From: a virus | Reading direction: 5' to 3' (one strand) | DNA length: 28,133 nucleotides | IMG/VR virus record: IMGVR_UViG_3300025732_000207 | Location: 1 to 28,133 of that record | Part shown: positions 3,872 to 20,400 of the stretch, in pieces | How the letters are laid out: every line of letters starts with the position of its first letter | Position numbering within the stretch: the stretch's first letter is position 1 | Notes under the pieces: model-generated | Database searches by the model: none | The model's input: only the letters and a program-made list of their open reading frames with translations | Told to the model about the DNA's origin: nothing | Position numbers and translations under genes: made by a program

Positions 3872-4006
3872 ATGCGAATTGCACTTTTGTTTGCTACAGT
3901 GTTCTTTGGTATTTCATTGACAGCAAATGCACTTGCAACTGTGAATGAGTATCAAGAAAAAAGAGCAGAACAATTCTGTCAAGTTCAACCTGATTTTTGT
4001 AAATGA
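3872..4006 (+). CDS. small secreted or membrane-anchored protein
   Basis: The 44-aa product starts at ATG 3872. Residues 1-22 form a signal-peptide-like hydrophobic segment: a short basic start (MR), a core of IALLFATVFFGISL, and an ANALA end resembling an A-x-A cleavage site. If cleaved, the mature part would be about 22 residues with two cysteines (FC and FC at the end), which could form a disulfide. It overlaps the next gene by ATGA (4003-4006), so the pair is translationally coupled. It may act in the host membrane or periplasm; no family is recognised. Confidence 0.6.
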   Translation: MRIALLFATVFFGISLTANALATVNEYQEKRAEQFCQVQPDFCK

Positions 4007-4218
4007 CTCTCACTCACACACAACTCGATAAGATTATTGAAATCTATGCTACGGCACTTGTTGATAGTATGGATGAAAAGATGCTTGAGAACTTTGTGTA
4101 TGAAACGATTGTAGAAAATATGTCTCATTCAAGTGAAGAGGATATTCTGAATGAACTCTATGCTTATTATGATGAAGAGGATGCTGATAGAATTGTAGAG
4201 TCTGTTTCTTCTCTCTGA
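4003..4218 (+). CDS. small acidic conserved protein (family B paralogue)
   Basis: The 71-aa acidic helical product overlaps the upstream stop by ATGA. Its pattern (QLDKIIEIYATALVDSMDEK, then SHSSEEDILNELYAYYDEED) parallels the product at 378-572, which suggests a duplicated family within this strip. No cofactor or catalytic motif is visible. Function unknown. Confidence 0.7.
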   Translation: MTLTHTQLDKIIEIYATALVDSMDEKMLENFVYETIVENMSHSSEEDILNELYAYYDEEDADRIVESVSSL

Positions 4219-5353: not shown

Positions 5354-5479
5354 GTTAATATTAAGTTAATAAAAAAATGTATTAAAAAACATAGTTAAGT
5401 GTTTTGTAATGCTGACATTTATATTATGATAATGTTATATGATTGTCTCTCTATTCTCTCTAAACCCTTCTAATTAACT

Positions 5480-5541
5480 ACTCTAAAGACTTATAAATGC
5501 CTCTAGTTATTAACTCTAAAGACTTATAAATGCCTCTAGTT
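5480..5541. repeat. 29-bp direct repeat, two copies
   Basis: Two exact 29-bp copies lie at 5480-5508 and 5513-5541, beginning ACTCTAAAGACTTATAAATG and separated by only 4 bp (period 33). They are about 130 bp upstream of the DnaA-box cluster. Tandem copies of this size are reminiscent of iterons, though two copies are few. Confidence 0.9.
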
Positions 5542-5625
5542 CTTGTTGTATAAGACCGCATTATAACATAAGAATCAAAAAAAGTCAAGACCTATAAGTC
5601 ACTTCCGGAACTGGCACAATGCAAC

Positions 5626-5654
5626 TTGACAAGGACTGCGAGAACTTATACACT
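5626..5654 (+). promoter_or_regulatory. sigma-70-type promoter reading into the DnaA-box cluster
   Basis: A perfect -35 TTGACA (5626-5631), a 17-bp spacer and TACACT (5649-5654, four of six matches to TATAAT) predict a transcript starting near 5661. No open frame of note lies downstream, so the product would be a non-coding or primer RNA running through the TTTTCCACA boxes. Confidence 0.55.
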
Positions 5655-5670
5655 AGGGGAAAGTGATGAG

Positions 5671-5801
5671 TTTTCCACAGGCAAGTGTTAAAAGTTTTCC
5701 ACAGGTTGATAAGAGAATGTAGTGTTTGCAAGGGTTTATAAGAATTGCCCTGTGGAAAAAGTCTTATAGTTTTCCACAGGTTTATGAGATTCTGTGGAAA
5801 A
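5671..5801. other. cluster of five TTTTCCACA boxes (cyanobacterial-type DnaA boxes)
   Basis: Exact 9-mers lie at 5671-5679 (+), 5695-5703 (+), 5751-5759 (-), 5770-5778 (+) and 5793-5801 (-). TTTTCCACA is the form of DnaA box described for cyanobacteria (compare E. coli TTATCCACA). Boxes 3 and 4 form an 11-bp inverted repeat (5749-5759 with 5770-5780). Boxes 4 and 5 form a 12-bp one (5768-5779 with 5792-5803). The two alternative pairings are mutually exclusive. Binding by host DnaA is inferred. Confidence 0.75.
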
Positions 5802-5931
5802 CTCGTGATGTATTAGAACTCGTTATCCTATGAGTTCGTTATATGATGATCTGCCGATATTGTTCGTCCTTATCTGCAGCATATTATAATACTTCGTTCT
5901 GTGAGTATGATACTACTTTGTTCGTGTATTA

Positions 5932-6340
5932 TTCTTATATTATAATACTGTTATATCTAATACACTTACACACTTGTAGTTCTTATCGTTCTATGCTATA
6001 CTATTCGTTGTATACAGGTGTTCGGTGTAACCTATGCTTAAACCTTACGATTACATGACCTGGTATACACTTTTCTATTCTTATCTGACAGTGTTGTGTA
6101 ATTCTCATACATAAGCACCCGTCGTGATACCATACCCCCCATACAGTTTACTATTCCGTCCTGACAGTGATGTTTAATTCTTATACATGTGCCCCTTCGT
6201 TATAGCATACCCTCCATATAGTTTGTTATAAGAATACAACAGTCTAGTATATTAACTATTCGTGGTTGTTCGTTATTCTTATAAAACAGGACAGTATATA
6301 AAGAATAGACAGTTATTCTTATTTGTTTCTTATTCTTATA
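5932..6340. repeat. dispersed TTCTTAT elements
   Basis: TTCTTAT is present at 5932, 5980, 6078, 6178, 6276, 6316, 6327 and 6333, with one inverted copy at 6227-6234. Nine copies of a 7-mer in about 410 bp far exceed chance even in AT-rich DNA. Two lie in the 76-bp repeat; the rest are independent. Function unknown. Confidence 0.65.
6075..6225. repeat. degenerate 76-bp tandem repeat, two units
   Basis: Unit 1 (6075-6150) and unit 2 (6151 to about 6225) both begin CTATTC, then carry CTGACAGTG, TTAATTCTTATACAT-like and CCATA(C/T)AGTTT blocks in the same order and spacing. The matches are interrupted by substitutions, so this is an old duplication. It lies in the gene-free region and does not encode a repeated protein. 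Confidence 0.75.
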
Positions 6341-6534
6341 GTAAACCGATGCCCCCCCGATATAAAAATCAAAGGAACCCCTAACCTACAAAACTTTGAA
6401 AACGACCGAGATTTTATGATTGATATAAAAAAATTTTGCCTCAAAAAAAATTCGGCATAGGGTCGATTTAGAAATGGGTCAAAGATAATAAGAAAAAATA
6501 CTATATAAGTTTTAATAAGCAGGGAGGGGGGCAA

Positions 6535-6863: not shown

Positions 6864-6922
6864 AAGAAGCAGATTGAATTTCTGTGATGTTATTGAATTC
6901 ATTTTAGGAGAATTTGAAAAAG

Positions 6923-7675
6923 ATGGCAAAAGGGTTTACAGTTAAAGCAAAGACACCACCATCAACCGAGAAGGGGGATGACTTTGATATGATGCAAGCA
7001 AGGGAAATGATTCGGGGGAAGACAGTAGTTTTCTGTTTACCTGGAAGAGGATGTTCTTACATTTTCCTGAAAGCATTTGTCCAATTATGTTTTGATTTAG
7101 TTCAAGCAGGTGCAAGTATTCAAATTTCGCAAGACTATAGTTCTATGGTTAACTTTGCGAGATGTAAGTGTTTAGGTGCGAATGTTCTCAGGGGTCCGAG
7201 TCAGAAACCCTGGGATGGCAAATTAGATTATGATTATCAACTTTGGATTGATAGTGATATTGTATTTGATTCGGAGAAGTTCTATCGTCTTGTGTCTATG
7301 GACAAGGACATTGCCGCAGGTTGGTATTGTACCGAAGACGGGCAAACGACTTCCGTTGCTCACTGGTTAGACGAAGAGGATTTCCGAGGAAATGGTGGAG
7401 TGATGAATCACGAGACTCTTGAGAGTATGTCAAAACGTCGCAAACCGTTTACAGTTGATTACACTGGATTTGGATGGGTTTTAATTAAGAAGGGAGTGTT
7501 TGAGAATCTTGAATATCCTTGGTTTGCTCCAAAGATGCAAGTCTTTGAGTCTGGTGAAGTTCAAGATATGTGTGGAGAGGATGTTTCATTCTGTCTAGAC
7601 GCAAAAGACAAGGGATTTGAGATTTGGTGTGATCCTCGCATTCGTGTGGGACATGAAAAGACTCGTATCATTTGA
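6923..7675 (+). CDS. GT-A-like glycosyltransferase
   Basis: The 250-aa product is probably a cytosolic sugar-transferring enzyme of the GT2/GT-A fold. Visible support: a first strand KTVVFCLPGRG (residues 33-43), the D110-S-D112 motif in a QLWIDSDIVF strand (metal and nucleotide-sugar binding), a DYTGFGWVLIKK acceptor-side strand (residues 179-190), and GED (218-220) followed by DPRIRVGH244, which fits the usual late Asp and His. The start is ATG 6923; an in-frame TTG at 6914 sits only three bases after AGGAG (6906-6910), while ATG has a 12-base spacing, so the start is not certain. In cyanophages such proteins may decorate virion or host surface sugars; the substrate cannot be read from the sequence. 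Confidence 0.7.
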   Translation: MAKGFTVKAKTPPSTEKGDDFDMMQAREMIRGKTVVFCLPGRGCSYIFLKAFVQLCFDLVQAGASIQISQDYSSMVNFARCKCLGANVLRGPSQKPWDGKLDYDYQLWIDSDIVFDSEKFYRLVSMDKDIAAGWYCTEDGQTTSVAHWLDEEDFRGNGGVMNHETLESMSKRRKPFTVDYTGFGWVLIKKGVFENLEYPWFAPKMQVFESGEVQDMCGEDVSFCLDAKDKGFEIWCDPRIRVGHEKTRII

Positions 7676-8473: not shown

Positions 8474-8518
8474 TTTTCTGTGCTATTTGGGAGTTTATGC
8501 TAATTGGAAAAGTTTTTA

Positions 8519-8845
8519 ATGGGAAATCACCTTCTTTTGGAAGTCTATAAGGTTGATTTTTCTCTTTTAAATGACGCAGAATCACTGAAGAACGCAATGT
8601 TGGACGGCATTGAACGGGCAGGTATGACCGTCTTAAACACGTTTCACCATTGTTTCTACCCTCAAGGGTGCACGATCGTAATAGCACTCTCTGAGAGTCA
8701 TGTATCGTGCCATACGTGGCCTGAAAATGGGTGTGTTGCAATTGATGTTTATACATGTGGACCAGGAAATCCAAAATTAATTGCACTTGAATTGTTAAAA
8801 TACTTAAACTCAGATGAATATAATCTAAGATATCTTTTCCGTTGA
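8519..8845 (+). CDS. speD: S-adenosylmethionine decarboxylase proenzyme
   Basis: The 108-aa product catalyses decarboxylation of S-adenosylmethionine, giving the aminopropyl donor for spermidine. It is a pyruvoyl enzyme that cleaves itself at a serine. The start ATG 8519 gives the typical MGNHLLLEVY; an in-frame TTG at 8504 is less likely. The cleavage motif is LSESHVSCHTWPE, with Glu59-Ser60 as the processing site. His65 and Cys80 (in DVYTCG) match the conserved processing histidine and catalytic cysteine of the short bacterial and archaeal enzymes (Ser63, His68 and Cys83 in Thermotoga). All three are present, so the enzyme should be active. It sits alone among structural genes, a setting known in marine cyanophages, where it may supply polyamines for DNA packaging or host translation. 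Confidence 0.93.
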   Translation: MGNHLLLEVYKVDFSLLNDAESLKNAMLDGIERAGMTVLNTFHHCFYPQGCTIVIALSESHVSCHTWPENGCVAIDVYTCGPGNPKLIALELLKYLNSDEYNLRYLFR

Positions 8846-11479: not shown

Positions 11480-14400
11480 ATGTCAGAAATCAACAGAGTA
11501 AAAATACAGGATTTTATTCAATCCCAAATTCCTGAATTCTTAAATGAAGAATCCCCTTTGTTTAATGAATTTTTAAAGCAGTATTATATTTCACAAGAAC
11601 ACCAAACTGGAGTTTCTGACTTAGCTACGAATATACAAAAATATAAATCAATTGATAATTTCAATAACGAGACATTTTATACTGACACTAATCCTTGTAT
11701 ACTTACATCAGAAATATTTGCATTTGATTCTACAATAGAAGTAAATCATACTATTGGATTTCCTAGAAAATATGGATTGCTGAAAATTGATAATGAAATC
11801 ATCACATACATGGGAAAGACAGCAACTTCATTTACTGGTTGTGTTAGGGGATTTAGTGGAATAGACAGTCTTGAGAAAAATTTAAATTCTCAGCAATTAA
11901 ATTTTTCAACTACTTCTGCAGAAGGACATTTAGAAAATTCCATTGTACAGAACCTAAATGTAATTTTCTTTGACAAATTTTTTACAAAGTTCAAAGCACA
12001 ATTTTTACCAGGTTTTGAGAGTAGAGATTTTTTTGAGAAAGTAGATATTAAAAATATTTTAAGAATTGCTAGAGACTTTTATTCTACCAAAGGAACTGAC
12101 ACTGCATTTAAAATTTTATTCGAAGTTCTTTTTGGAAAACAAATTAGTGTAATTAAACCACAAGATTTTCTAATTAGACCCTCTGATAATACATACATTC
12201 TAACAAAAAATATTCTTGTAGAAAAAGTTTCTGGTGGAGATCCTTTAGATCTAATAGGAAAAACTTTATTCCAAGAAATAGAAAGTTCGGTTATTGCAAG
12301 TGCATCAATATACAATGTTGAATATCGTCCAACTGAAGATAAAGATTTGTATGAAATATCATTGGATATTGAAAGTTTTGTTTCTGATTTTGAAACTACA
12401 AGTAAAACAAGAGTATTAGAAAATATTGTTGCTAACTCTGATTACGTTACAGTTGATTCTACTATAGGATTTCCTCAAAGTGGAAATTTAGTATTAAATT
12501 CCTCAAGTTTAACCAATAATGTAACTTTAACTTATACGGATAAAACTATAAACCAATTTCTTGGGGTTAGTGGTTTATTATTTAACATAAACATTGATGA
12601 TGAAATATTTGAGAATAAATTTGCATACAGCTTTTTAGATGATGAATCTACTATAACTTTTAGAGTAATTAATGTTATTTCCGACTTAGATTACTCAACT
12701 ACATCAAATCTGAGAGTTGGTGATAAAATTGCCTTGTCATCTTTTGGAATTGATTTAAATTTTAAACCAGAATTTAGAAGTTGGATTTACAATATCCCAA
12801 CTTCACACAGAATAAAGTCAATTAGTTTATCTGGAGACTCTAATGGAAATATTTGGAATTTAGAGTTATTTGATAGTATTAAATTTTATGTTGGAGAAGA
12901 GGTAGAATTATCTAATCCAGATGATATAAATGATATTCCAGTTAATACTGTAATTAGAGACATTATAACTGAAAAAGTTGTAGAGGTAGAAACTTCAGAA
13001 GATGTTTCACTTAAAACTTTTGTCAACAAAAAATTAAAAAAAGCAGAAAGTAATCAAAATTATTTCGAAAATGCCTCAAAACTTTTTGCTGGAATTCAAA
13101 ATACTTACATTGATTTTTCTGAAGAAAACATTTATGTAGCATCAAGTGGTCTTCCAAATTATAAAATTTTCTCTAAAGATAGAACAATTAATGTTACTAC
13201 ATCAGTTGGAATTGGAACAACGACTATTTTAGACACTTCGGAGACTCATAAGTTCTATACTGGTGAGCAGATTTATTATTTCTCATCAGCAAATTCTGGA
13301 ATAAAAACAGGAATATATCATGTAACTGCAATTGGTGATGTAAAAGATAGTAAGCAAATAAGTTTGTCTTACAATAAAAGTGATGTATTTACTAAAAAAT
13401 ATGTTCCAATTAATCTTGGAATCTCAAGTGATTATTTTGTAAGAATTGATTATGAAAATAAAGAGTTAGAGCATCAAAAGATATTTAAAAAGATAAATCT
13501 AACAAAAAATGCACAGATTTTAACTTCCAATGAAAATAGAACTACTAACAACAGGCAAGTTGGTTTATTGATAAATGGTGTTGAAATTTATTCTCCAACA
13601 TTGTATGATGAAAATATTTACTATGGAAAGATTGATTCCGTTCAAATAACAAATAGGGGAAAAGACTATGATGTAATTAATTACCCAACTATAGACATTA
13701 TTGACGAAAATGGTTATGGAGCAGATGTCCATGTCAATATTGTTGGGGAATTAAAAGATATTAAAATTGTTTCTCCTGGAATTGGATATGAAGTAAAACC
13801 AAAAATTTCAATTGTTGGTGGAAATGGTTCTGGTGCTGTGGTTGAACCAAATTTAGTAAGAACAAGAATTATTTCTGGGTTTAGAGGAGATGGAATTGGA
13901 GTTGATCCAACAACTATAACCTTTGTGGAAAATCATAATTTTGATAATGGTGAAGAAGTTATATATGATTCTAATGGAAATTCAGACATTTTCCCATTAA
14001 AAGATAAGTCAAGTTATTTTGTTGGAATAGTAAATTCAAAAACAATTAATTTATACAATACTTATTCTGATGCAATTAACCAGCAGAATAATATTAATTT
14101 TGTTGGAATAAGTTCTGGATTCCATAGATTCAAAACATTAAACTCAAAAAATACAATTACAAAAATTTATGTTAGAAGCAGTGGGTCTGGATATTCCAAT
14201 AAGAAAGTAAAAGTTCCCTCTTTGCTTTCTTATGACAATAAAACCAATGGTGTCAATACATTTGATGATTATATTTTTGCAAAGAATCATAATTTTAAAA
14301 CTAAAGATGTTTTACTTTATAGTCGTACAGGAACTGCAATTTCTGGATTATCAACAACAACATCCTATCTTGTAACTGTATTAGATTCTAATAAATTCAA

Positions 14401-17400: not shown

Positions 17401-20400
17401 CACATCATTTAAAATAAATTTAAAAAATAAACCAGAATCAGTAAGTTACACAATATCCTCAGGAATTTCTTCAATATACTATGATACTGATTCTGAAAAT
17501 ACCAAAGGACCTATATCTACAGTTAAGATAAACTATTCTGGAAATGGTTATTCAAAAATACCTGCCATTAGTAGTGTACTATCGAGTAATGGAACAAGGG
17601 CAATTTTAAAATCAGCATCTTCTACTATAGGAAAAATTGATATTACTGAAAGAGTGAAGGATGGTTATGATTATCCAACTGATAAAACATTAAAACCATT
17701 TTTAAGTGTGCCCACAGTAGCACAAATAAAAAATATCTCAAGAGTTGATTATATTGGAATTGTTACTGGAGGAAAAGGTTATAATTCTGCACCAAGATTA
17801 GTTGTAATTGGAAATAATAAAATTAAATTATCATCTGCCGTAAATGGGGGATCGGTTTCTGTTGTAAGTATATTAGATAATTCATTTGAATTATCTGTTC
17901 CATTGAGAATTGTTCCAACAAATAATTCAAATGGTTATGATATTGATGATATTGTTGTTGCTGGAAATGATGTAACACTAGAACTTATAAACAGCAACAA
18001 TCAAATCTATCCATTGATTTCTACCGGATATGGTACAACTGAAGTTGTATTTCCATTCTCTGTTGGAGATGAGATTTTTATAGAAAAATGTAGATTAAAT
18101 TTAACTGAAAGAGATGAATCTGGCAATTTGGTTGCCAAAGATAATTTTAATTCAAAAGATTATAATTATAGGTTCTTTACTGTTACTGGGGTTAATACTG
18201 GAAATTACACTGTAACTTACAGTATGGAGGGAATTTCTAACAACCTTGGTGAATATACCAGTGACTTTAATTATGGTTATGTTGTCAATAAAAAAAATAT
18301 GGCAGAATTTGAAATGGTATTAATTGATGATTCTAAGTATATTTCCGGTGAATCTGTTTCTGGATTTGATGAATTTGGAACTAACACATTTTATGCTAAA
18401 GTGATGGAAAATGGGTGGGATACAGAAACAAATCAAATAAGACTAATAGATTCAGTAGGATCATTAAGAGTAGGAAATATTTTAGTTGGAGAAAAATCAA
18501 AAATTAGAGGTACGGTAGGTTCAGTTAATCAATTTAATATACCAGCAAATCTTGGAGTAAGTAGAGAAAAAGTTAACAAGTTTAGTGACAATGTTGGATT
18601 CTTAAATGATTATCAACAAAGAATTTCTGACAATGATTATTACCAGAAATTTTCCTATTCAATTAAGAGTACTATTCCATATGATGATTGGAGAGAACCA
18701 GTAAAGTCATTAGTCCATCCAGCAGGATTAAAGGAATTTTCTGATTTAGATGTTGTTGGAATTGCAACTACTGGACCTGTAAATATAGGAATTGCTAAAT
18801 CTTTTAATATGAAGGTAGGTGTTGCAATAACTGATATTTCATTAAAAGTTAATATTGATAATTTAGAGTCATTCTATAACAAATATAATTTCTCGATGGT
18901 TACTGAGGATGAGCAACTTGAAGATGGTTCCATAGAAAGAATATTTTTCCCAGATGGAGTTAATTTACTTCCATTTATTTTAAATAAAACAAATAAAGTT
19001 ATTACTGTCGATGATATTAGTGATCAATTTACTGGTTTCACTACCTCTCTTGGTGGTGAGATTATTGGAATTACATCATTTAAATTAAAAAATAATGGAA
19101 CTTCTTTATTCTATCATTTATTTGATTCATATGACTTAAACATTGTTGATTTAGATAGAGATAGATTTTTTATTCCAAATCACAATTTCCAATCTGGCCA
19201 GAAACTCAAGTATTTAACTAACGGTCAAGCAAGTATAGGAATTGCAACCACATCGTTGGTAGAAAGTTCTATAAAGGTTTATTCCAGTGCTGGAGAAGTT
19301 TCAGTAGCATCAACTGAATCAAATATAATTATGGAAATTGGTGGTACTACTGGCAGTGCTTTATACGAGAATGGGTACAATGTTGCAATTACTGGACCAA
19401 TATCTGGAATTTCATCAGATGTAACCCCCAATTTTTCGTTTAATCAAAATGCATTTTATGGTTTCCCAAGTGGTTACCCGCAAAATTCTACTACTGGTGT
19501 GGGAACTGATGCCAGATTTAGTGTTTTTATTGTTTATAATTCAAGCACTGGATCCCCAATCTCAACATCAGTTGTTTTAGTCGAAGGTGGAAATGGATAT
19601 TCAGTTGGAGACGTGGTTTCCATATCTGGAACATATTTTGGTGGTTCTAGTCCAACAAATGATTTATCATTTACAGTTTCAAGAGTTGCAAACACGATAA
19701 TACCTCTAGAGGCAAATAATACTTATACTAATGTTTCTGGAGTTACTGTTGTTGGTGTTGGAACAAATGCAACTTTCAATATTTCTAGAGATTCAACTGG
19801 TGCTATTTCTTCCGTTCAAGTAGTTGATGGTGGTTATGATTATACTTTAAGTGATAATATTACAATTTTAGGATCTGATGTTGGTGGGGTTTCTCCTGGA
19901 GATGACATATACTTATCACCAACAGTTCTCGGAAGAAATACTCTTCCAGATATACTTTATGTTGAAAAGATTGATGATAATCACTTTAGTGTTTCTGGTT
20001 TAAGTACTTCCGAACCTCTCAATTTGACTTTAGTTGGTTCGGGACAACATGAATTCATTTATCAAAACCAAAATGCAAGTAGCATAATCTCCATAGACAA
20101 TATTATTCAAAGTCCTCTTTATATAAGAGATGTTTCTGTGTCTTACTCTGGAATTATAGGATTAACTACTACTATAATTCCTATTAGTTCTGGAATTTCT
20201 TCTATTACAACTTTAGATATTTTAAAAGTAGAATCAGAATATTTTAAGATTAAAAATATTATTGGAAATAATTTAGAAGTTTCAAGAGGATTTTTAGGAT
20301 CTATTCCAGATATCCACTCTTCTGGAATAGCAGTTACAGTTTATAGAGGTGACTTTAATATTATTAAGGATACAATTCATTTTACCACTCCTCCATACGG

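Follow-up and report, generated by a model that had tools for sequence, protein, structure and literature searches.

Phage T4 replicates from several origins per genome, including oriE, oriF and oriG, some of them of the R-loop type; these origins are not known to use DnaA or to carry an array of DnaA boxes. In Escherichia coli, the chromosomal datA locus acts together with IHF to inactivate DnaA. Phages of other groups do carry host-DnaA boxes where they replicate: in lambda such boxes lie beside promoters in the pR/pO region near ori-lambda (PMC3985674), and boxes are also predicted in the replication region of a Pseudomonas phage, so sites of this kind are not new for phages at large. Among cyanobacteria, most share the DnaA box TTTTCCACA, and the DNA-binding domain of one cyanobacterial DnaA binds origins bearing this 9-mer in vitro (PMC4674748). 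For the T4-like cyanophages, which are among the most abundant viruses in the ocean, the start of replication is unsettled, and a review offers only the prediction of a single theta origin for Syn9 (PMC2984593). Recruitment of DnaA to start or control replication would be unexpected for T4-like viruses, and a search of the open literature found no report of DnaA-box arrays in T4-like phages, or of DnaA boxes in T4-like cyanophages.

Here we describe a DnaA-box array in one IMG/VR fragment of 28,133 bases, the whole of which we call the window. The window is T4-like cyanophage DNA (Kyanoviridae), and its closest annotated genome is that of S-SRM01.

RESULTS

Five exact boxes in a gap between early and late genes

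A first-pass annotation of the window had claimed five exact copies of TTTTCCACA, three on the plus and two on the minus strand, that form inverted pairs and are of the cyanobacterial type. An exact-match search places them just so, at 5671-5679 (+), 5695-5703 (+), 5751-5759 (-), 5770-5778 (+) and 5793-5801 (-), and the type agrees with that reported (PMC4674748). Boxes 1 and 2 are direct with a 15-nt spacer, boxes 3 and 4 are everted with a 10-nt spacer, and boxes 4 and 5 are convergent with a 14-nt spacer, the most frequent convergent spacing among cyanophages. A single isolated further copy lies at 13924 on the minus strand, and no extra box with at most one mismatch was found between 4901 and 6900. 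Dinucleotide shuffles give an expectation of 0.81 copies for the whole 28-kb window (maximum 4), compared with five within 131 bp, so the array is not a product of chance. A permutation control agrees: when 1,260 permutations of the 9-mer were searched for close pairs in 12 genomes, TTTTCCACA gave them in 9, the runner-up in 4, and 1,186 permutations gave none. Together, these two results rule out a chance origin, and multiple exact boxes of the host type cluster beyond expectation. A general search for over-represented 9-mers was of no use, as tandem repeats from other parts of the genomes swamped it.

All five boxes fall inside a gap of about 1.18 kb (5354-6534) that has no convincing ORF. 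On one side of the gap is a strip of small early ORFs, and on the other a block with glycosyltransferase, speD, gp25 and gp6. Two genes of this block served as syntenic markers. The glycosyltransferase ORF (6914-7675, +), downstream of the cluster, has tblastn relatives in at least 105 phage records, several of which carry that annotation, and speD (S-adenosylmethionine decarboxylase; 8504-8845, +) has an annotated homologue in S-SRM01. The long stretch at 5820-6530, also without convincing genes, holds many repeated motifs of the TTCGTTATA and TTCTTATA types and a 55-nt direct repeat (6065-6119 and 6141-6195). The early strip contains small acidic ORFs that appear to be duplicates (170-376 and 1942-2172; 363-572 and 4003-4218), and ORFs resembling them occur in loci L037 and L088.

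The cluster is kept at one place in about half of the isolates examined

The region has almost no direct nucleotide similarity to the isolates, so the locus had to be located through motif and synteny. Ten of 20 complete Kyanoviridae isolates carry one box cluster (Syn9, Syn33, S-PM2, P-SSM7, S-SM1, S-CAM22, S-RIM2, S-CREM1, DSL-LC02 and DSL-LC03), and all ten clusters lie in the equivalent interval from the early small genes to gp25; Syn9, S-SM1 and DSL-LC02 have merely two or three close boxes. The other ten isolates, including P-SSM2, P-SSM4, P-HM1 and S-CRM01, have no cluster. Conservation at the predicted syntenic locus, run as a check that could have refuted the first-pass annotation, is thus seen in many relatives, but others lack the cluster wholly, and S-SRM01, the closest annotated genome, is one of them. 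The annotation had inferred a host-DnaA-dependent origin or a DnaA-titrating decoy and judged that either would be out of the ordinary here. The array itself is common among T4-like cyanophages (10 of the 20 genomes), although it was undescribed as far as our search reached. P-HM1 (NC_015280) has exact boxes at 175804 and 176693, 889 bp apart, which may be due to chance; they flank a stretch that resembles the leftward promoter block described below (~176456), outside the gp25 interval.

In a box-blind sample, contigs were chosen only for a speD relative, and 39 of them extend over the sequence upstream of the glycosyltransferase gene as well. Ten of these have four to seven boxes, one has a single box and 28 have none, and no copy of the reversed control 9-mer occurs in any of the 39. 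Collection-wide scans for close box pairs, together with loci from earlier scans, brought the number of loci that hold such a pair to at least 240. One earlier pattern scan also picked up siphovirus-like tail loci with boxes at a 12-bp period (L028 and L031), which are unrelated and were set aside. Among the matches listed, the cluster lies upstream of the marker gene in all 97 marker-bearing loci, and cyanophage-like loci account for 61 of 209 matches to TTTTCCACA, 1 of 120 to the E. coli-type box TTATCCACA and 3 of 120 to the reversed control, so the type of box matches the host. Arrays of TTATCCACA are frequent in other phages, where 68 of 120 listed matches (L818-L937) have at least three copies in 500 bp.

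In one group of relatives the box columns are invariant (36/36), compared with 384 of 618 flanking columns. In a tree of the glycosyltransferase, phages with boxes fall together in a single group of 20 rows with strong support. Box presence requires 3 changes on it, compared with 11.5 when labels are shuffled; the true number of changes may be below 3, because rows L096-L098 were kept as box-free without a check of upstream length.

Host-like spacing points to host DnaA as the likely ligand

Once near-identical contexts were removed, phage convergent spacers peaked at 4, 14-16 and 25-26 nt (R 0.83 at 10.5 bp) and direct spacers at 2-3, 12-13, 23-24 and 34 nt (R 0.74 at 10.5 bp), a helical phasing of 10.5-11 bp. 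Clusters in cyanobacteria have direct spacers of 2, 12-13, 21-24 and 33 nt, so the phage boxes keep the same helical register as those of the host, and E. coli-type boxes in other phages keep this register too. For the reversed control the signal was far weaker (R 0.29), and most of its peaks fell on multiples of three. A convergent pair is present in each of the nine isolate clusters examined in sequence, whereas the fractions of inverted pairs among the loci from the scans carry a bias, since such pairs were a requirement in one scan. Of 194 genomes sampled from the cyanobacterial class, 157 have close direct TTTTCCACA pairs, compared with about 5 for a control pattern. DnaA domain IV, the DNA-binding domain, was sought in 20 phages and is encoded by none, so we set aside a phage-encoded DnaA for these genomes. 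Taken together, the cyanobacterial boxes, their syntenic conservation, the host-like spacing and the lack of a phage DnaA domain IV make host DnaA the obvious and, judging from sequence, very likely ligand of the array.

Since DnaA binding is itself a prediction here, this 9-mer might serve a phage protein or another host protein, or the inverted pairs might act as RNA hairpins. Convergent pairs with a 4-nt spacer could fold in this way, and the S-PM2 (NC_006820) cluster at 19231-19264 overlaps annotated tRNA-Asn and tRNA-Leu genes. We consider these explanations highly improbable, because the box is identical to that of cyanobacteria, the helical register is equal in host and phage, hairpins are impossible for direct and widely spaced pairs, and an Rfam search returned nothing above any family's gathering score.

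An AT-rich element and promoter-like sites lie beside the boxes

To the left of the boxes is an AT-rich element (5354-5420; 82% AT in 5360-5420) with the core TTAAAAAACATA at 5382, a candidate unwinding element. Positions 5390-5429 are 0.80 identical to loci L165 and L153. The core motif TTAAAAAA[CT]ATA is found 19 times near clusters and twice far from them, an enrichment of about 49-fold. An AT-rich element thus adjoins the predicted initiator sites, as in an origin, but of 138 clusters just ~19 have the strict core nearby, and the core may stand on either side of the box pair. The isolates P-SSM7, S-CREM1, S-CAM22 and DSL-LC03 are bipartite, with a convergent pair by the AT-rich stretch and a second group of boxes 0.3-0.6 kb further on; L106 and L110 are also bipartite, with the pair on the opposite side of the core. 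The window retains the core and the right-hand array and is missing the first box pair.

A leftward sigma-70-type promoter, TTGACT-N17-TATAAT (5560-5588, -; 11/12 consensus, extended -10), points away from the genes and across the AT-rich element. It is retained in all nine aligned sequences, isolate DSL-LC03 among them, and 5550-5589 is 0.88-0.90 identical to L165 and L153; few parts of the region are as well conserved as this promoter block and the AT-rich core. Promoter-like sites as a whole number 11 compared with 8.9 in shuffles, so the case for this promoter depends on its conservation. Just upstream of its -35 element, ACTGGCACA (5610-5618, -; TGTGCCAGT on the promoter strand) is also kept in all nine sequences, but it was rejected as a cluster-specific motif because it is merely 2-fold enriched near clusters. 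Also left of the array are two tandem copies of GACTTATAAATGCCTCTAG (5488-5506 and 5521-5539). Each copy contains TATAAATG, which is near the T4 late promoter TATAAATA, and doubled blocks resembling them occur in L148 and L165.

A rightward promoter-like site, TTGACA-N17-TACACT (5626-5654, +; 10/12 consensus), would fire into the boxes. Its TTGACA is retained in L148, L165 and DSL-LC03 and absent from the L099 group. In the window this site stops 17 bp before box 1, which begins about 10 bp past the site's expected start. Such an arrangement, the conserved leftward promoter and the position of the boxes where the small early genes give way to the late baseplate genes would all suit a DnaA that acts as a transcription factor, repressing or activating the adjoining promoters so that the host DnaA level times early or late phage transcription, with no replication start at this locus. 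We regard this as unlikely, given that the distance from promoter to boxes varies from ~0.1 to 0.4 kb between relatives and that the leftward transcript would carry no conserved gene; the gene upstream of the locus itself varies between relatives.

The DnaA-trios of the host origin are missing

A bacterial oriC with the basal unwinding system has DnaA-trios next to a box (PMC8287927), and in Cyanobiaceae the trios (CTACTACTA) adjoin the boxes of oriC. Upstream of dnaN in this family (L668-L697), several genomes clearly show TTTTCCAC..TTTCC(A/T)CAGG-CTACTACTA, and exact TTTTCCACA boxes are few in most. Of 125 phage clusters, 1 has trios beside its boxes, which does not exceed the level in shuffled sequence, so the phage loci do not share this basal-unwinding feature, and we rejected the array as a copy of a host oriC. 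GC skew was uninformative, as it gave no origin signature and was similar in phages with and without the cluster.

DISCUSSION

Because about half of the related phages examined share the array at one fixed place, it probably serves to recruit a host protein for the start or control of replication. On the sequence evidence, we give roughly even chances to the array being a host-DnaA binding site at a locus of phage replication initiation (or control). Host DnaA would bind the phased boxes as an oligomer and, aided by transcription from the leftward promoter, would open the AT-rich stretch that this transcription enters, where the phage gp59/gp41 helicase machinery could load. A first theta-type round would start there before recombination-dependent replication takes over, and DnaA held on the array might, as a by-product, dampen host initiation. 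This sequence of opening, helicase loading and a theta-type first round at the locus is a proposition we hold to be about evenly balanced. If the locus is an origin, it would not be a copy of the host's, and the duplex would be opened by way of transcription and the AT-rich core, rather like lambda or the R-loop origins of T4. It fits that Syn9, the subject of the single-origin prediction, carries the cluster locus, at about 52.6 kb.

The presence and absence of the cluster also bears on another role. Half of the genomes are without it and must replicate all the same, which speaks against an origin, and the pattern suggests that the cluster is not essential to all relatives. The missing trios, the scarcity of the strict core and the arrays of two or three close boxes also weigh against an origin. 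The array could instead be a datA-like decoy that, with the multiplication of phage genomes, soaks up or inactivates host DnaA and so halts initiation on the host chromosome, without being the phage origin. Richer arrays bring 4-10 perfect boxes per phage genome, compared with 0-2 exact boxes within 600 bp ahead of dnaN in host Cyanobiaceae, and the absence of trios is as a decoy would have it. A decoy, however, could do without a set position, an AT-rich core and a promoter, and yet all three are conserved, and several phages retain only two or three close boxes. For these reasons we favor an origin and think a decoy rather unlikely, although both a decoy and control of the promoters are serious rivals.

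Building on the origin reading, we tentatively suggest that a large clade of T4-like cyanophages, unlike T4, initiates at a single host-DnaA-dependent origin that sister lineages lost or never had, although we lean slightly against this wider claim. If true, DnaA dependence would be a switchable trait inside one phage family, linked to host DnaA, and lytic phages of the T4 group would be tied to the host replication initiator and to the varying dependence of cyanobacteria on DnaA. The array also gives a precise candidate initiation site in named isolates, with cluster-free phages as natural negative controls.

Each of the known systems resembles this locus in part. The cyanobacterial oriC, upstream of dnaN, is like the phage array in its 9-mer, its clustering and its direct-spacer register, but the phage locus lacks both DnaA-trios and dnaN. 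Convergent pairs are prominent in phages, whereas host clusters have 7 convergent and 186 direct pairs, a rough comparison since direct pairs were the criterion for picking the host loci. The E. coli datA locus offers a likeness in its roughly five DnaA boxes clustered outside oriC, a likeness that for the cyanophages is drawn from sequence. T4 origins share with this locus, within genomes of the same general type, a promoter adjoining AT-rich DNA, but T4 has several origins, compared with one box locus per cyanophage genome. Lambda is similar in having host-DnaA boxes beside promoters in a phage replication region; it differs in using its own initiator, O, with few and weak boxes, whereas the cyanophages, a different phage group, carry many perfect ones.
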